DNA of 64,000 nt, taken from contig NC_092565.1 in NCBI RefSeq assembly GCF_037975245.1, positions 22,649,499 through 22,713,498 on the forward strand. The letters run 5' to 3'. Below, piece after piece: positions 1,228-12,068 of this stretch. The position numbers and the translations under genes are program-made. Source of the DNA: Apostichopus japonicus (Eukaryota > Echinodermata > Holothuroidea > Aspidochirotida > Stichopodidae). The notes under the pieces were generated by a model. That model was not told the DNA's origin and made no database searches. It saw only the letters and a program-made list of their open reading frames with translations. Numbering within the stretch: the first letter of the stretch is position 1; each line of letters opens with the position of its first letter.

Positions 1228-1771
1228 ATGTGTAAAAGTAAGTTGGCCTGACGTTTCGATCCTAGCAGGATCTTCTTCAGAGGCTAAATGACAAGTTACA
1301 GTAACAGAGGGGACAAAAACACGCACAGAATACAGACAGGTTAAAGAGCACGGTGAACACAATGAGATGGATGAAAGGGGATTATAAGTAGAAAGCAACA
1401 GGAGAAGAGGAGAGGAAGGAGATAAACTGTGGAGGGACAAAGAGAGGATTAAAGGCACAGGGTAAGGAATAAACTGGAGAGGGACAAAGACAGAAAGGTG
1501 TGAAGAAAAATGGAGGGGAAGAGAGCTGTGAGAGGAAGAGTGAAAGGGGGGGGGGGGAGGGAGAAAGGGGAGAAGGAGTAGGGAACAGAGGAAAGTTAGT
1601 CATGTCCTTCCTGAATGTTCAGCCCATGAGGTTGAATGGTACGAAGGCGTTGCATCCAGAGCCTCTCTCTGCTGATACGTACTAGGTCAGGACGGCTACC
1701 TAAGGATTCAATCCCCTGTAGGGACATGTCGTTAATGCATAGGAAGGAGCCATCCTGGTTCCCATGGCTGT
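1228..1771 (-). mobile_element. Inverted, internally deleted arm of a Penelope-like element
   Basis: Read on the minus strand, this segment matches the 3' part of the PLE that lies on the plus strand. A fragment of the RT motif MGTRMAPSYA (about 1771-1736) jumps directly to the last codons of the ORF (NDMSLQGIES onward, about 1734-1605). The pyrimidine-rich 3' untranslated region and a hammerhead ribozyme follow. About 1 kb of coding sequence is therefore missing between the RT and the C-terminus. The arm is head-to-head with the plus-strand copy starting near 1775, so the whole is an inverted repeat with a short central spacer. Inverted and 5'-truncated arrangements are common for Penelope elements. 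The left end is set by the last base shared with the right end, beside the motif ATGTGTAAAAG. Confidence 0.85.
1246..1284 (-). ncRNA. Hammerhead ribozyme of the Penelope-like element (left, inverted copy)
   Basis: On the minus strand the order is: stem I half GCCT, core CTGAAGA, stem II GATCC/GGATC with a short loop, core GAAA, a minimal stem III (C-G), cleavage triplet GTC, and stem I half AGGC. Stem I is perfectly complementary and both conserved core boxes are intact. Hammerheads with very short stem III are a known hallmark of Penelope-like elements and are thought to act best as dimers. This copy is identical in its core to the one at 8435-8473. Self-cleavage is inferred from the fold only. 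Confidence 0.85.
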
Positions 1772-1823
1772 CCCGTGTCTTTGAAGGTAATGGGAACCAG
1801 GATGGCTCCTTCCTATGCATGCC
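1736..1823. repeat. Short inverted repeat at the centre of the PLE inversion
   Basis: About 31 bp at 1736-1767 is the reverse complement of 1793-1823. Both arms encode the RT segment MGTRMAPSYA, in opposite directions, with about 25 bp between them. This marks the point where the inverted arm and the direct arm of the Penelope-like element meet, and could form a hairpin. Confidence 0.85.
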
Positions 1824-2989
1824 TGTTTATGTCTAGCCTTGAAGAACGCATGCTCAGTACGGCTCCCTGCCGTCCCCTTATCTGGTGGCGCTACATTGAT
1901 GACATCTTCTTCATTTGGACCAGTGATGAGGATAGCCTGCTCACCTTCATCAATCACATCAATTCTTTCCACAGCACCATCAAATTCACCTCTGATTACT
2001 CTCACCAACAGGTTAACTTTCTCGATGTGACTGTTCGCAAGGAACACGGTTCTCTCTCTACAGACTTATACACCAAGCCCACAGACACACACCAGTATCT
2101 CCATTCTTCAAGCTGCCATCCCCGTCACTGCAAGTCTGGAATTGCCTACAGTCAAGCACTTCGTCTTCGTCGCATTTGCTCTAACAATTCCTCTTTCATT
2201 CGCCATACAGATGCTTTGGAAAAACACCTTATTGCCAGGGGCCATAGTGCCAGAAGGGTGCGTGAAGCCATTCAGAGAGTCCGCTCCTTTTCCAGATCAT
2301 CTACTTTGGCAGTGAAGGACAAAAAGGGACGAGTTTGCGACAACAAGCTGCCCCTCGTTGTTACTTTCCACCCAAATCTTCCTCCCCTTCAGAAAATCAC
2401 CTCTAACAACCACAACATTCTCCTCACTTCAGATAGACTCCAACGAGCCGTCCCTGAAAAACCCATCATCGCCTACAGACGACCACGCAACCTACGAGAC
2501 CTTCTTGTACGTGCTGCTGTTCCACCTCTAACTTCTAACCCCACACCCATTCAGCATGGTACCTTCAAATGTGATCGTACTTCGAGATGCATCGTCTGCA
2601 GCCACCACATTGTTGAATCCAATTCCATCACCAGCCACAGCATGCAACTCACACACAAGACTAAGGGTCACATCACTTGCACTACCACCAATGTCATCTA
2701 TCTGATCTCTTGTAGAGTTTGCGGCATCCAGTATGTTGGCGAAACCAAAACCACCCTCAAGAAGCGATTCTATGGTCACAGATCCACAGTCAACACCATG
2801 AAGACTGAGACCCCAGTTGGAGAACATTTTAACCTTCCCAACCATACCATTAACGACATGTCCCTACAGGGGATTGAATCCTTAGGTAGCCGTCCTGACC
2901 TAGTACGTATCAGCAGAGAGAGGCTCTGGATGCAACGCCTTCGTACCATTCAACCTCATGGGCTGAACATTCAGGAAGGACATGACTAA
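1775..2989 (+). pseudogene. Penelope-like retroelement RT / GIY-YIG endonuclease, 5'-truncated
   Basis: This open frame encodes the C-terminal half of a Penelope-like element polyprotein. Near the start it has the RT motif MGTRMAPSYA and then the catalytic YIDD box (residues 40-43, within RYIDDIFF). A thumb-like stretch follows, with the motif HSSSCHPRHCK. After a linker comes a Cys-rich motif (CDRTSRCIVC, about residue 269) and a GIY-YIG endonuclease of the Penelope type, with VIYLISC at about 307-313, IQYVGET at about 318-324, the RFYGHR arginine region, and NLPNH downstream. The frame ends at TAA 2987-2989. Full Penelope ORFs are roughly twice this length, so the N-terminal half and the first RT motifs are missing. 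The first few residues belong to the inversion junction. The remaining frame has no stop or frameshift, which suggests a fairly recent insertion. It is a dead copy because RT motifs are absent. Confidence 0.9.
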
Positions 2990-3006
2990 CTTTCCTCTGT
3001 TCCCTA

Positions 3007-3420
3007 CACACTTAAAAATAATTGCTCAACATGGGGTAAAATGGACCACCTCTATGGTGTAAAAAGGGAACATGGTCAACAGATGTGTAAACTTTACACA
3101 TTAATGCTTTGGCAAAGTTTTACCTTACTGTGGGGTAATATTTTACCACACAATGTGTAAATTATTTTACCAACTGAGCATTGTGTAAAATTTGCACAAC
3201 AATGACCATGTTCCCTTTTGTACCCCATTTTGTGTAAATTTTACCCATGTCAAGCAGGGCACTGGTTTTACCCCACAGTTGTGTAGTTTTTTTGCAAAAT
3301 AGTTGTGTAATATTAGCACACCTTTCGGGGTTCCTTTTTTTTTTTACACAACAGTTGTGTAATATAAGCACACCTTTTGGGGTTACTTTTACACACACAC
3401 TTGTGTAAATAATATAATTT
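3007..3420. repeat. Left terminal region of the nested insertion: GTGTAA/TTACAC sub-repeats
   Basis: Dense short inverted and direct copies of TGTGTAAA and TTTACACA run through this stretch. They include two neighbouring copies of a roughly 60-bp unit (about 3297-3345 and 3350-3400) with the shared motif GTTGTGTAATAT and then GCACACCTTT. A matching motif-rich stretch occupies the other end of the element, so these are sub-terminal repeats of the kind transposases bind. Their function is inferred. Confidence 0.65.
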
Positions 3421-4201
3421 TATATATACTGTAAATGTTTCAAAATCGTGTCAAAAACATATACCTTTGAACAATTTGATATAACTTCCATACTTGCATA
3501 TGCTTGCGTGTTAAGTAAGGTTGCAATAATTTTAAGACTTTAGATTATATGAACAAACATGGGAACAAACATTGGCTCTATGGCAAGGAAGCCTATGATC
3601 TCAGTGCAAGAAAATAAAACACTTGTAACATCAAAATGAACTGATAAAATTTATTAAGAATTCTGTAAATAACTTTCAGCTTATCAGGAAAAATGAATTT
3701 TCTCTCTTGCATAAAACAGAACATGAAAATCATAGAAGTGAATACCATTACAGTATTAGCAGCAATGCAGCCACATATATAGGTTAATAATATTGTTCAT
3801 AGTAGGCTAAAATATTTTTGTAGGGGAGCCATTGCATAATGAAATGTACTTTTCTTATTCTTAATTGTTTTTCTAATCAGGTTGGTGTGTGTGGGGGGGG
3901 GCTTTTTTTGACACCACTTGCTATGGGCTTGCATAATATCAACCCAAGTTTAGGTGAAAGACGAGTTAAGCTACATATCAAACAGGTGAAACATACACAT
4001 GACTTTTAAATCCCTGTGATATTTTATTCCTGGGGTATTTCCTGGATATCAATCTCACATAGCAATTATATAGCCAACAAAATCTACATTTTTTTAATTT
4101 GTTTGTGCCTAATGTTGACCTCATCAACGAGTTATTCAGAAAGTTTTCCAACATTCGGGCAGTATTATTTAGAATTAATGTAAAGTGTATCATTACTATG
4201 T

Positions 4202-4690
4202 GTTGGATAACCATGCTAGATGCTTAAAACCCTATGAAACTCAACTTTACTAAGCTGTCATATTTCTCAAAATTCTAACATATTTACATCGACAAATGTT
4301 ACAATGTATCATATAGTTGAGGTACTAAAACAGAACTTTGAAGAAACTTAACCATCCCTTATATGCTTTCACAGTTGTTGAATAAACCATACTGGAGACC
4401 TCAAGTCCTTTAAAATCAACTATAAGCTGTGATATTTCACAAAAAATCTAACATATAATAGAAAGAACTCAAAACAAGTTTGAAAACACCAGAAAAATAT
4501 CTATATGGAATGAAAGTAAAATCATCACTTATCTGTTATCACAGTTGTTCAATAAAACATGCTGGAGAACAAAAGCCCTGCAAAATTACCTATACGCAGT
4601 GATCACGTATAATGGAAAGAACACAACACAACTTTGAAAACAACAGAAAATATCTATATAGGAACAGACTCAAATCATCACTTATATGTT
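4202..4690. repeat. Three divergent tandem units of about 170 bp
   Basis: Related blocks start near 4202, 4376 and 4546, each opening with a version of GTTGAATAAACCATGCTGGA. They continue with a shared CTGTGATATTTCACAAAA-like stretch, a GAAAGAAC/ACAAC stretch and AATATCTATAT. The units differ at many positions. They lie inside the nested insertion, just downstream of the decayed SAM-gene exon, and have no coding potential. Confidence 0.65.
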
Positions 4691-4710
4691 AAAATGTAAA
4701 GTTTTACATA

Positions 4711-4850
4711 CCCTTGCAACCTGAAGTTAATAGCAGCTAGAGGTCTAACATCTGTTTAGCTTTACATAACACAGGCCAATGGATACAAAGAGCGGGCCCA
4801 CTTCCAGTGCCTTCTCCTCAATGATGACGAAGAGCTACTGGAGCGGATTA
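4711..4850 (-). pseudogene. Decayed duplicate of the SAM-gene third exon
   Basis: The minus strand aligns along its length with the exon at 5001-5209. It shares CTCTTCGTCATCATTGAG (LFVIIE), then GAGAAGGCACTGGAAGTGG (EKALEV), then TTAGACCTCT, and a GTATG donor-like end at about 4710. Indels and stops break the frame after the EKALEV segment. It is a tandem exon duplication that has degenerated, and it lies about 150 bp downstream of the intact-looking copy in gene order. Confidence 0.7.
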
Positions 4851-5000
4851 CTTGTTAACAATGACGAAAATAATGCCATGTTGCTGACAGTGGTCTTACA
4901 TAATTGATTTGAAATGATAGTATGCCCTGAATGCCCTGATAGACCCTGGTTCATTCGGTACTTTAATAGCATAAATGAGAGTGTCTAAAGCAGTTCATAC

Positions 5001-5209
5001 CCCCATAGCCTGAGGTGGATAGCAGAGGTCTAAAATCTGGTAAGCCTTGTAGCAGAGGTCAATTGCTGCAATAAGTGTGTCTACCACCATTGCCTTTCGC
5101 TCAATGATGACGAAGAGCTGCTGTGGCTGGCAGTAGTTGCCTCCCAAGATCAAAACGAATGGCTGTGTACGTCCATCAAATTGAGTCAAGTATTGCGCTA
5201 AGTTTACAC
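5001..5209 (-). CDS. SAM-domain gene exon 3 (C-terminal conserved domain), inside the insertion
   Basis: The minus-strand frame reads GVNLAQYLTQFDGRTQPFV, then LILGG, QQLFVIIERKAM, TLIAAIDLCYKAYQILDL and CYPPQAMG. Proteins resembling vertebrate SAMD3 and many uncharacterised invertebrate SAM proteins carry a similar C-terminal pattern (FVVI...LVAAVDVCFKAFYVLDLQYP). This is recalled family knowledge, not a search result. The acceptor is a TTTTCAG tract. The first AG (exon from 5213) shifts the frame relative to exon 2, whereas the AG four bases on (exon from 5209) keeps it, so either that site is used or internal exons are missing. The donor is GGGG|GTATGA at 5001/5000. No following exon was found, so the gene is incomplete. 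Confidence 0.65.
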
Positions 5210-6370
5210 CTTCCTGAAAAGACAAGTTATTATATAAAATTTATATATATTGACCACAATCTGGGAAATATGTATAGGTAACCTTCCAGTTGTGTAGTTT
5301 TAAGCATATCTGACCAATGCTAGAAAAAAAGAAACAGGTTTCTTCAGGGGGAACTTCTACAACACACAGGTCATACTTGTCTCGACACCAAAAGGATTTG
5401 AAATATTATTTAATATCTTCTTTTCCAGTCCTATGAAGATTCCTGGTATAATAAATTATCAAAGTCTAGAGGTACCATGGAAATGATATGTTAGTTCTGG
5501 CCAAATTAAGGGCAACTTATTTTGGTAGTATATTGCAGTAACATAGCCAGGTTCTGACAATGGGCGAGTTATGTGGGGTATAGAGTCAAAGGGGCACTGA
5601 AACAGGAAGTTTCCTTTAAAAGAGGGTATCCCCATGCAACCCTCACTCATGGTTACTACTAGTTCATTTTTGTTATGGTATTTCCTTTTGAGGAAGAGGC
5701 ATATTCCGCACCCACCCCATTTGACAACCATGCAGGTTCTCCAGGGTTAACAGTTTATTTAATTGTATTTAGTGGAACTGATTACTATGAGCATAAATGC
5801 AGTATTTCAGGGCATTTATACTGTAGTACAGTAATACCTTTGATGATTGCCTGTGGCATCAGAACCATTACTTGAGTAATATTGCAACATTTACATATTG
5901 ACCTCAATCTGTGACAACATCAATGCTATGTACACCAAAAACAATTGATTACAAGTTACTACGGGCTATTTACTAGCATGGTAATGATATATCATGCCAT
6001 CTTCTGAAATGAGGCCCACCACTCAGAATTATGTCACAATAACATTGACAAACATGATAACCACAAAGATCATACAAAGTTTGGATATAATGTGACCTTT
6101 GGGTGCAGAATCATTGTTATTGGAATATTTTGACCTCTGACCCAATACTTTAACTGATATTTACGATGAGATCGATGAACACCATACACAATAAGATCTT
6201 TAAGTAACAAAGGGCGATCACCCATTGTTGAGTTATCACGTAACAAAGCCAAGCATCACACACTCACTCACGCATACGCAGTACACGTACATATGCACAT
6301 GGACCTGAACACATATACTATTCCGTGTGCAGCAAGGCATCGAACCTGTGTTGAACAATGATATTATTAC

Positions 6371-6499
6371 CTTCTGAAAGAGAGTTGCACCTTAGGTTGT
6401 AGTGATGTTTAAACTTTAAACGAAGACCGAGTTTGGGGATTATCTGTGTTATGCTCTCGTCATCCAGTAACTCAAATACTTCATCATCAATCCTGTGAG
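6371..6499 (-). CDS. SAM-domain gene exon 2 (second half of the SAM domain)
   Basis: The minus-strand exon is bounded by acceptor TTTCCACAG|CT and donor GAAG|GTAATA. Joined in phase 1 to exon 1 it encodes AHRIDDEVFELLDDESITQ, then IIPKLGLRLKFKHHYNLR. This is the C-terminal half of a sterile alpha motif: the IDDEVFELLDDE helix pair and the IPKLGLRLKF end helix are typical of SAMD3-like proteins. The splice between exon 1 and exon 2 keeps both the reading frame and the SAM fold, which is good evidence that this was a real spliced gene. Exon length is 129 bp, phase 1 to phase 1. Confidence 0.75.
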
Positions 6500-7764
6500 C
6501 TGTGGAAATTAGAGGGAAAATATTTTCCATATAACACTGTTACAAAGCTTAATAACAGTAATGACAAAGGACATGTTGCATATTAGGAAATTGCTTCCGT
6601 AAAATGAACATTCATGGATATTGCAATCATCACATATTATTCTAGACATAAAAAACAACCAGAGAATGTAAACATTTTATTGTGAAATAAAAAAAAATGC
6701 AGAGATATTAATGTGCTTACTGCTTAGCCCACTCATTAACATAACTTATTTTCTTCAGGTAAAAGTCAACTGCGTTCAAAGGTTAAACACTAACATCATT
6801 TTTTTATTAAGCCACCATGGACCAAGGTCTTAGTTGGAATGTAGGCTTCTTGTAGGCCAACTTCATGTGACACACCCACATATCAAATATCAGATCTGTC
6901 CAAGCTTCCCTTCTTGAGATATCAGGTTTAGTAGTTTTCACAATTTAACCTCTGATGACCCCAAATGACCATTGACCTCCCCAAAAATCAGTGCGCTTCT
7001 TGTCCCTAATGTGGTCACGTACACACCAAACATGAGAAGTCCAAAATTCCCTTCTTGAAATACTGTGTTTACAAGCTTGGCAGCACAAACACACACATAC
7101 GCCATTATGATTGCAAAGCGTACTATTTTCATCACAACTAACAAAGCTTGTTTTACCATTTGGCCCTAACATATGAGAGCCAGGGTCTTGGTTGACTACT
7201 GCAGGATCATAGTGAGGCTTATTTTAATGGATATGCTAGTCATAATGGGTCATTGCCTGGCCTTAAACCTAATATTCAACTGGTAATGTTAGCCTAGGCT
7301 GTATCGCTTGCCTATTTGTAGTGTTGGTTAAGGAGACCTATCAGTATATAAATGTAGAATTGGCTTGGGCCTTAAACATAAGCCAAAGCTAGGATGGTTC
7401 AACGTTGGCCAACGTTATACGTAACCTAAGTTACTCTCATACGTGAGTAATATCTTTAGTACGAACAAGATGGTTATGTGCACTACCTAGTCTCTATGGG
7501 CATGAAAAGAGAATCTAGAGAGGAACGAAAGGCTATATATGTATGCTTGGCGCTTACTATTAGAAATAGCTTAACCTAACGTTCGACCTTGCACTAACAT
7601 TTAGTCGTAACGTTAAACAAGAGTGAGGCCTAGGCGACGAGTATATGCCGTTTAAAACAGTTTTCGTTCAGTATTCAACGGTGAAATTGTAGTTCAAGAC
7701 TTATTGAAATATTATTCTTTCCGCATAAAAGGTTAGTACTGATGCCCGAAATACACCATCCTAC

Positions 7765-7846
7765 CTTCTAATTGTGGCTTCAGTTCCGCTAGGCCGATGT
7801 TTTCCAGAAATTGTGAAACGACCATCGAACTTTTAGTGGCTTCCAT
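7765..7846 (-). CDS. SAM-domain gene exon 1 with start codon
   Basis: The minus-strand ATG at 7846-7844 opens MEATKSSMVVSQFLENIGLA, then ELKPQLE, ending in donor GAAG|GTAGGA at 7765/7764. The QFLENIGLAELKPQLE stretch is the N-terminal half of a sterile alpha motif and continues in frame into exon 2 (6499-6371). SAM domains mediate protein-protein or RNA contacts; no catalytic function is implied. Upstream of the ATG, in gene orientation, lie about 290 bp up to the right end of the nested insertion, so the promoter would come from within the element or from the PLE. Codons show no stops or frameshifts. Confidence 0.7.
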
Positions 7847-7904
7847 GTTGTCGTTCTGCAAGCAGCGACGCGGTATGAAAGCGTGTTTACACATCAAAGT
7901 TGTA

Positions 7905-8135
7905 ACATAAATGTATTTTACCCAGTGCAGTGCAACAAATTACACCGGTATTTTGTTTTACCGGTAGAAAGGGGCAAACTGGTCCTTTTTTTTACACAAT
8001 ACGCATTTGTAAATCATTACACCTGTGTCTGTGTCGCATGATATACATGTTTTACTCAGCGTTGTGTAAAAATTGCACAACTCTTTACCCCTCACTTTTA
8101 TACCCCGTTAACTTTTACACATTGTTTTTACTGTG
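7905..8135. repeat. Right terminal region of the nested insertion
   Basis: This stretch contains many TTTTACACA/GTGTAAA motifs like those at 3007-3420, plus an ACCGGTATTTTGTTTTACCGGT inverted pair near 7944-7966. It ends in TTTTTACTGTG next to the TA shared with the left junction. Together with the left end it defines the element boundaries. Confidence 0.6.
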
Positions 8136-8491
8136 TACTCCTTCTCCCCTTTCTCCCTCCCCCCCCCCCCCCCTTTCACTCTTCCTCTCACAGCTCTCTT
8201 CCCCTCCATTTTTCTTCACACCTTTCTGTCTTTGTCCCTCTCCAGTTTATTCCTTACCCTGTGCCTTTAATCCTCTCTTTGTCCCTCCACAGTTTATCTC
8301 CTTCCTCTCCTCTTCTCCTGTTGCTTTCTACTTATAATCCCCTTTCATCCATCTCATTGTGTTCACCGTGCTCTTTAACCTGTCTGTATTCTGTGCGTGT
8401 TTTTGTCCCCTCTGTTACTGTAACTTGTCATTTAGCCTCTGAAGAAGATCCTGCTAGGATCGAAACGTCAGGCCAACTTACTTTTACACAT
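8136..8491 (+). mobile_element. 3' region of the Penelope-like element, displaced by the nested insertion
   Basis: This is a pyrimidine-rich 3' untranslated/LTR-like segment that directly continues the PLE arm ending at 3006. It matches the reverse complement of 1228-1590 nearly base for base, including the poly-C run near 8157-8172, CCTTTCTGTCTTTGTCCC, and the hammerhead. It ends at CTTTTACACAT, after which the two flanks differ. Apparent reading frames here (7930-8337 and 8261-8500) are low-complexity shadows. Confidence 0.85.
8435..8473 (+). ncRNA. Hammerhead ribozyme of the Penelope-like element (right copy)
   Basis: The order is stem I GCCT, core CTGAAGA, stem II GATCC/GGATC, core GAAA, minimal stem III, GTC cleavage triplet (8467-8469), and closing stem I AGGC. 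It matches the hammerhead family found in Penelope-like elements and is identical to the inverted copy at 1246-1284. Cleavage would fall after C8469, 22 bases before the element's 3' boundary. Confidence 0.85.
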
Positions 8492-11150: not shown

Positions 11151-11640
11151 TTATAATACGGTGGTAACCATCATGATTTTTAGTCTTTTAATTTCAGTCG
11201 TTTTTTGCTGTTGCTATCCACACATACATATAGACCTATTTATAGACCTTATATATAATACGGTGCTATCAATCATGGTATTTAGTCTTTAATTTCAGTC
11301 GTATTTTATGTTGCTATCCACACATACAACAAGACCTAATAATAGACCTTATATATAATACGGTGCTAACAATCATGGTATTTAGTCTTTAATTTCAGTC
11401 GAAGTTTATGTTGCTATGCACACATACATATAGACCTATTTATAGACCTTATACATAATACGGTGCTAACAATCATGGTATTTAGTCTTTAATTTCAGTC
11501 GTATTTTATGTTGCTATCCACACGTACAAAAAGACCTATTTATAGACCTTATATATAATACGGTGCTAACAATCATGGTATTTAGTCTTTGATTTCAGTC
11601 GTATTTTATGGTGCCACCACACATACATGAAGACCTATAG
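11151..11640 (+). repeat. Five-unit tandem array with an exact 100-bp period
   Basis: Units begin with ATATATAATACGGTGCTAAC at 11251, 11351, 11451 and 11551, with a more divergent first unit near 11151. Each carries TTTAGTCTTTAATTTCAGTC, then TTTATGTTGCTATCCACACA, then AGACCTATTTATAGACCTT. The period is exactly 100 bp over four steps. The last unit runs into GTTAAGTTTGTAATGATA, the continuation seen in the single-copy relatives at 8821 and 39735, so the array is an internal amplification of that element. Confidence 0.9.
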
Positions 11641-12068
11641 TTAAGTTTGTAATGATAAACCATTTCCTAAAGTATGTATAAACTATATTACATTGACACA
11701 AATTATGATTGTCCCTCTCATAAAAGGGATTATATTAGAACATATTAATATATTGGTTAACTTATGACTAAAAAGTACCGTGGATAGTTTCAAGCAAGTA
11801 AAGTTAATAACACATGCTTCCATACGTTTTCATATACAAGTGAGTACATTACATAATTGTCATATTTATTATCATATAGTCTTATCCTTATATACAATGA
11901 GGCAACGTATCGCGTTTAAGCATCAGCACGACGTCAATCACAATATGAGGAGAATAATGTGCAGGGTGTTACAGAGATAACGCACGAAGTCATTAGAAAG
12001 CCCTTAAACTTATTAACTGATGTTAAATCTAGATACAGGACACTGCATATACACTGAACCACCAATTA

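Follow-up and report, generated by a model that had tools for sequence, protein, structure and literature searches.

A SAM-domain gene around the transposase: a probable internally deleted EnSpm-like transposon in Apostichopus japonicus

Can a transposon-like insertion that lacks a transposase and carries a gene with introns be regarded as a vehicle for captured host DNA, or is the gene a part of the transposon itself? This question is raised by a stretch of 64,000 nucleotides of Apostichopus japonicus DNA (assembly GCF_037975245.1, contig NC_092565.1, positions 22,649,499 to 22,713,498 of the forward strand), referred to here as the window. Near its left end lies an insertion with a multi-exon gene encoding a SAM domain, which a first-pass annotation had described as captured at the DNA level and as either helping the element or hitch-hiking. 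Comparison with related copies across the genome (671,581,487 bases in 35 contigs) leads to a different answer. With a probability of about 0.86, window positions 3007-8135 are an internally deleted, non-autonomous copy of an EnSpm-like (CMCT-type) cut-and-paste transposon that has two genes, one for a transposase and one for the SAM protein. The element and its limits are as follows.

3007..8135, coding strand minus: non-autonomous transposon copy of 5,129 bp, supported by end matches and further two-ended copies
3007..3022, plus strand: left terminal inverted repeat, CACACTTAAAAATAAT, the same in all 17 two-ended copies
8121..8135, minus strand: right terminal inverted repeat, CACAGTAAAAACAAT, off by one base in 2 of the 17 two-ended copies (L011 and L012)
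3005..3006, no strand: left copy of the target duplication (TA), read directly; a single TA stands in the empty site
8136..8137, no strand: right copy of the target duplication (TA), read directly

Direct reading bears out the limits, inverted repeats and TA duplication that had been proposed for this insertion. It also agrees with the view that the insertion is nested in a Penelope-like element, one inverted arm of which preserves the unoccupied site, where TA stands only once, at window positions 1579-1580. The match count between the empty arm and the joined flanks, 278 or 283 of 510, is uninformative, as the length of a C run differs. Both 300-bp ends were searched against the genome, and each matches 26 places (one of these searches gave 49 matches in all, the excess being subterminal repeats that match in reverse). 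The search with both termini suggested in the first-pass annotation thus returns a multi-copy family with intact ends and SAM exons between them. Ten more two-ended copies (L009-L018) share 97.6-98.7% identity with the window copy, and L015 has about 0.7 kb extra.

Much longer copies with the same ends are also present. Copies of about 15.1 kb were found at three places, named LA (L025+L026), LB (L027+L028) and LC (L029+L030), and these are mutually 99.65-99.74% identical over 15 kb. A fourth long copy, LD (L043+L024), matches for the greater part of its length; neither the end searches nor the copy comparison revealed its right end. Relative to the window copy, the extra sequence of the long copies is chiefly a single stretch of about 8.9 kb located at window 6378/6379. 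This stretch carries an 858-codon frame on the strand of the SAM gene (841 amino acids counted from the first ATG). This frame resembles tnp2 (EnSpm/CACTA) transposases, and the three 15.1-kb copies are candidates for the transposase-encoding autonomous relative that the first-pass annotation had proposed to look for. The frame aligns end to end with the transposases of two other families, L045 (42% identical) and L061 (33% identical), and all three keep a D (in LLLY.D), GDN, C(2)C (CR.C), H(3)H (H...H) and an E (in R.E.KH), the catalytic residues having been assigned by eye. At its N-terminus is a C2H2-like finger that scores 15.4 bits against a cut-off of 25.2. In a genome search with the transposase, the best 53 of 430 candidates were scored; they are 29-100% identical, and many have open frames of 800-890 amino acids.

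The SAM gene of the window copy is predicted to contain the following exons.

7765..7846, minus strand: exon 1, with the start codon and the first part of the SAM domain; donor GTAGGA from 7764
6378..6499, minus strand: exon 2, with the remainder of the SAM domain, running to the point of the GTGAGT donor of the long copies
4992..5213, minus strand: C-terminal exon, from sequence reading, stopped early by a TGA at 4992-4994

Joining position 7765 to 6499 restores the SAM domain in frame, as had been noted before, and the joined peptide of 68 amino acids scores above the Pfam cut-offs for both SAM_2 (23.9 bits, cut-off 20.5) and SAM_1 (23.4 bits, cut-off 23.0). A PDB sequence search with this peptide gave two weak matches only (E 0.27 and 0.81). 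The earlier description of SAM exons followed by a conserved C-terminal exon holds for the spliced SAM exons at the DNA level, but the C-terminal exon is stopped early. The join that had been proposed between them, 6371 to 5209, is doubtful: it keeps the frame, but 6371 lies past the deletion scar at 6378/6379, and the acceptor of the long copies starts the exon at 5213; the join would require an AG four bases downstream of that acceptor. In LA, the first ATG of the transposase lies about 20 bases beyond the GTGAGT donor of SAM exon 2. Downstream of the transposase, the long copies contain a linker, three exon-like blocks, a block ending in ...CFIDFQK and the C-terminal exon. Because exon 2 precedes the transposase and the linker and later exons come after it, the transposase is, in this gene model, nested in the SAM gene, on the same strand and between exon 2 and the later exons.

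This arrangement is not confined to one family. In the L045/L046 family, which has the 42%-identical transposase, order and strand are preserved for SAM exon 2, the transposase, the linker and five more exon blocks. The E-values, obtained against a single 20-kb subject without composition correction, are 2e-7 for SAM exon 2, 0.002 for the linker, 5e-9, 1e-8 and 2e-8 for the three middle blocks, 0.002 for the block after these and 8e-16 for the C-terminal exon. Genome-wide, the C-terminal domain lies within 20 kb of 41 of the 53 scored transposase loci, compared with about 0.9 expected from 300 random places. It is on the same strand in all 41 cases, following the transposase in 37 and lying just upstream of it in 4, and the associated transposases include some that are only 30% identical. 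Two C-terminal queries together gave 300 rows at 251 distinct places, and among these no opposite-strand domain was found within 20 kb of the 53 loci. A search for SAM exon 2 with an L045-family peptide, admitting E-values up to 1, gave 95 hits and places this exon within 1.5 kb upstream at 22 of the 53 loci; no opposite-strand hit falls within 5 kb of the loci. In addition, a hidden Markov model (HMM) of three exon 2 peptides was run against 14 regions upstream of other transposases and scored 22.8-50.3 bits in 5 of them; the highest score among 200 control stretches was 4.3 bits. All these counts are lower bounds, as they cover the best 53 of 430 transposase candidates and the best 150 of 601 and 150 of 342 places for the two C-terminal queries, and they include copies of one family, hence the loci are not independent. 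A first count took all 150 places of one C-terminal query and the 25 of the other near a transposase, and a first pairing took a hand-picked 109 places; in one tally, 5 second pieces of loci already included were set aside, which left 145 of 150. Counting with all 150 + 150 rows left 41 of 53 unchanged and raised the number of SAM/C-terminal pairs from 55 to 56. Because gene order and association persist across divergent transposases, we conclude that the SAM gene is in all likelihood an old, integral part of the transposon lineage and not a recent capture.

Several observations weigh against the reading as a two-gene EnSpm-like transposon. Matches to the Transposase_21 model (PF02992, cut-off 28.6) are weak: the 858-codon frame scores 14.0 bits (E 0.028), the L061 transposase 24.5 bits (E 1.8e-5), and for the L045 transposase no match was found; at other loci of the genome the cut-off is exceeded. 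The C-terminal domain was not found within 20 kb at 12 of the 53 transposase loci, and in one subfamily of four loci (L058, G000:C12:19953660-19956337, and three similar ones) it is located upstream of the transposase. SAM exon 2 was not seen just upstream at 31 of the 53 loci, and behind 7 of the 22 positive loci are weak hits, four at E 0.93 and three at E 0.026, two of those groups having been confirmed by reading. The exon 2 HMM detected nothing in 9 of the 14 upstream regions, which may have longer introns or another layout, and nothing convincing for SAM exon 1 was found upstream of exon 2 in L045. The splice sites were read by eye, and the gene model is derived from DNA sequence. Between LA and LD, the 840 transposase codons compared have 6.5 synonymous and 19.5 non-synonymous differences, and the pieces of the SAM gene have only 1-5 differences each. 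In both genes the non-synonymous rate (dN) is close to the synonymous rate (dS), and at this short distance no sign of recent purifying selection was seen on either.

The origin of the short copies can be read from a single junction.

6371..6379, minus strand: deletion scar, from comparison with the long copies; exon 2 runs directly into the final bases of a later exon, with a 2-base overlap

On the coding strand, exon 2 ends in CTCTCTT, which is followed by GTGAGT in the long copies versus TCAGAAGGTAAT in the short copies. The TCAGAAGGTAAT part of the short-copy junction corresponds to the end of a late exon in the long copies. That 14 of the 15 short copies have an identical junction (L020 is without the region) points to one founding deletion of about 8.9 kb, including the transposase open reading frame (ORF), and subsequent spread. 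Since distant families have the long layout, the change is most simply placed from long to short, and the window copy is probably a descendant of the long form that has lost the transposase and the middle exons. Loss of the transposase is also observed elsewhere. A same-strand C-terminal domain lies within 20 kb downstream of 56 of the 95 SAM exon 2 hits. These pairs comprise 22 distant ones, at 7.0-10.4 kb, of which 21 enclose a listed transposase, and 34 close ones, at 1.0-4.0 kb, of which none encloses a transposase among the 53 listed; 15 of the close pairs belong to the family of the window. One other close pair, L062 of the L045 family, was partly read (2.25 kb), and it has a 4.6-kb deletion with other breakpoints that took away the linker, one exon and the larger part of the transposase. 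Transposase-less copies therefore appear in more than one family, and they appear to have arisen in several.

How else could the insertion be explained? The first-pass annotation had itself named two observations that would speak against it, termini occurring only once and an assembly join of unrelated pieces. The 26 places matched by each end dispose of the former, and since the termini recur with exact 2-bp duplications, the latter has practically no probability: near-identical copies stand at separate places, all 17 two-ended copies have a duplication of their own, and an empty site is found close by in the Penelope-like arm. Recent capture, in which the transposon acquired a host SAM gene, introns included, and has since transported it as cargo, would be a natural view of the window copy alone, which has no transposase frame and has spliced SAM exons in frame. 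It becomes very improbable when the related copies are considered, as the transposase sits inside the same gene, the exon order around it is kept in the 42%-identical family, and the C-terminal domain accompanies divergent transposases at most scored loci, so that the gene is not absent from other families. A capture at a much earlier date is another matter. SAM is a common animal domain, and the domain found here passes the Pfam cut-offs; a host SAM gene may have been taken up in the ancestor of the lineage and have turned since then into a second gene that the transposon needs or profits from. This fits the co-location data, and nothing was seen against it. It concerns origin only and is compatible with a two-gene transposon, and we consider it a serious possibility, if somewhat short of an even chance.

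The spread of the short form might also have a cause of its own, namely that it makes a truncated SAM protein which represses the full transposon. In some other transposons, truncated products repress the full element. Both SAM exons are open in 10 of the 15 short copies, close SAM/C-terminal pairs are spread over several families (19 of the 34 are outside the family of the window), the one other family read has different breakpoints, and the join of 6371 to 5209 would restore the frame. Set against this are an exon 1 stop in 3 of the 15 short copies (L013, L016 and L018), the broken exon 2 of L020, an out-of-frame join when the long-copy acceptor is used, and a C-terminal exon that stops early or shifts frame in all 13 short copies where it was read. 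In L015, exon 2 was unmatched by the search pattern. Moreover, the recurrence of transposase-less copies alone is no proof of selection, because the gene has exons on either side of the transposase and ordinary, random internal deletions spare the outer exons anyway. Repression as the reason for the spread is accordingly considered unlikely.

The two-gene transposon can be further characterized by its target sites. An exact 2-bp duplication flanks all 17 two-ended copies examined, and because these duplications are 12 TA, 3 CA and 2 TG, the insertion target is, judging from these flanks, a TA or CA/TG step and not TA only. The TA duplication described earlier is correct for the window copy but does not hold as a general rule. 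The 2-bp duplication is not seen in the other 4 of the 21 copies compared: L021, which is without a left end, and the older relatives L031-L033, which have a different left end. L021 and L022 (G000:C11:21127550-21138968) are two related copies arranged head to tail; one is two-ended with a TA duplication and adjoins a second copy that starts at element position 794, which suggests an insertion into, or beside, a truncated copy. L031, L032 and L033 (G000:C16:22.06-22.52 Mb) are shorter derivatives of about 0.8, 3.2 and 2.5 kb. The 18 flanking bases compared are very similar among the three, and they may be segmental duplicates of a single insertion with differing internal deletions. An old relative, L039 (G000:C16:7103001-7110287), is about 65-78% identical in the matching pieces and contains the C-terminal exon region several times in tandem.

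To which group do these elements belong? Two placements were dropped. The TA-specific superfamilies (Tc1/mariner and ISL2EU) do not agree with CA and TG duplications or with a tnp2-like transposase. RAG/Transib, suggested by the CACAGT end, does not agree with a duplication of 2 bp, as that of Transib is 5 bp. The termini are of the type 5'-CA..TG-3', with CACA...TGTG in all 17 two-ended copies, and the same 17 have a 2-bp duplication, within the 2-5 bp range of CMCT elements; L021 and L031-L033 are the exceptions given above. In all three families, the DDE residues assigned by eye enclose C(2)C and H(3)H motifs between the second D and the last E. An En/Spm-like layout, with a same-strand transposase ORF within an accessory gene, is present by sequence in LA and in L045/L046. 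From canonical CACTA elements they differ in their ends (CACAC and CACAG, not CACTA/CACTG) and in a duplication of 2 bp, not 3 bp. By ends, duplications and transposase motifs, the element is thus best classified with the EnSpm-like CMCT elements and is not a canonical CACTA element.

The sections of the cited reports drawn on here allow a closer comparison. In EnSpm, Mirage, Chapaev and Transib, C(2)C and H(3-4)H are described between the second D and the last E, and CMCT elements have CA..TG ends and 2-5 bp duplications (PMC12730594). The present element is similar in ends, duplication length and both motifs, but it has a SAM-domain partner, which does not appear in that part of the CMCT description (PMC12730594). 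In maize, the En/Spm transposase is encoded by an ORF within the intron-1 region of tnpA, and TNPA binds subterminal repeats (PMC2613891). Shared with maize are a transposase ORF within a multi-exon accessory gene and clustered subterminal repeats (PMC2613891), as well as internal-deletion derivatives, those of En/Spm being moved in trans (PMC2613891, PMC1636069). Unlike in maize, the ends are CACAC/CACAG and not CACTA, the duplication is 2 bp, the accessory protein has a SAM domain and the transposase similarity is weak. Soybean Tgmt*, a CACTA relative, has a 3-bp duplication (PMC2613891). SmTRC1 has CCC ends, 2-bp duplications in 7 of 14 copies, and a large Transposase_21 ORF with shorter, alternatively spliced products; relatives of SmTRC1/TRC are reported in Strongylocentrotus and Danio (PMC1636069). 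Its authors predicted a TnpA-like partner and, in the text drawn on, describe PrA/PrB as without similarity to other animal or fungal elements (PMC1636069). The 2-bp duplications and the one large transposase ORF are alike in the two systems, but the ends of SmTRC1 begin with CCC (PMC1636069), and the second gene of the present element is conserved between families of a single genome. No SAM-domain partner for such transposons was found among the open-access papers listed, in a search that did not cover Repbase, and 'SAM', 'sterile alpha' and 'CACTA' are absent from the main text of the Holothuria glaberrima genome preprint.

What might the SAM protein do? Near both ends of the element, the motif GTGTAAA/TTTACAC is clustered.

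3057..3409, no strand: left subterminal zone with 9 copies of GTGTAAA/TTTACAC, from a motif count
7886..8120, no strand: right subterminal zone with 4 copies of GTGTAAA/TTTACAC, from a motif count

In the window copy, the left 420 bases contain 9 copies, the right 260 bases 4 and the 4,449-base middle 1, against shuffle means of 0.1 (left) and 0.06 (right); the corresponding counts in LA are 8, 4 and 4. The motif and the zone limits were picked by eye. In the mechanism proposed, alternative splicing of a single transcription unit would yield both the transposase and the SAM protein, as it does in maize En/Spm. The transposase of the long copies would recognise the CAC ends, cut there and move the short copies in trans. 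The SAM protein would be an accessory factor similar to TnpA that binds or bridges the GTGTAAA repeats near both ends. SAM domains often self-associate, and bridging could occur via SAM-SAM contacts; the protein may also regulate the element. The resulting proposal, that the conserved SAM protein is the animal counterpart of TnpA, that SAM polymers draw the repeat-rich ends together in the excision complex and that transposase-less copies persist as regulators of their full-length relatives, is a speculative one, with the odds against it.

Together, the conserved SAM second gene and the nested layout mark the element as a variant of the EnSpm-like type. The second gene of animal CACTA/EnSpm elements had been a loose end, and here several divergent families of one genome share a candidate for it, with the transposase inside as in maize. 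If the SAM protein is an end-binding or synapsis factor, plants and animals would share a layout with accessory proteins that look unrelated, and an animal model for TnpA-style regulation would become testable. These results also suggest that transposon genes are to be found among the multi-exon 'SAM-domain genes' of such genomes. Similar C-terminal regions are presumably present in annotated SAM proteins of fish and invertebrates.

The element into which the transposon was inserted is itself a repeat.

1228..8491, no strand: host Penelope-like element with inverted arms, split by the transposon, recognized by its inverted arms and a GIY-YIG domain

The GIY-YIG domain is barely above the cut-off (23.2 bits against 22.6), and the motif YIDDIFF is taken by us to be that of its reverse transcriptase. 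The arms, of 333 and 160 bases within window 1228-8491, have 100% complementarity, which suggests that the host element itself is young. Elsewhere in the window, a direct repeat of four copies with a 100-bp period is found at positions 11209-11708.

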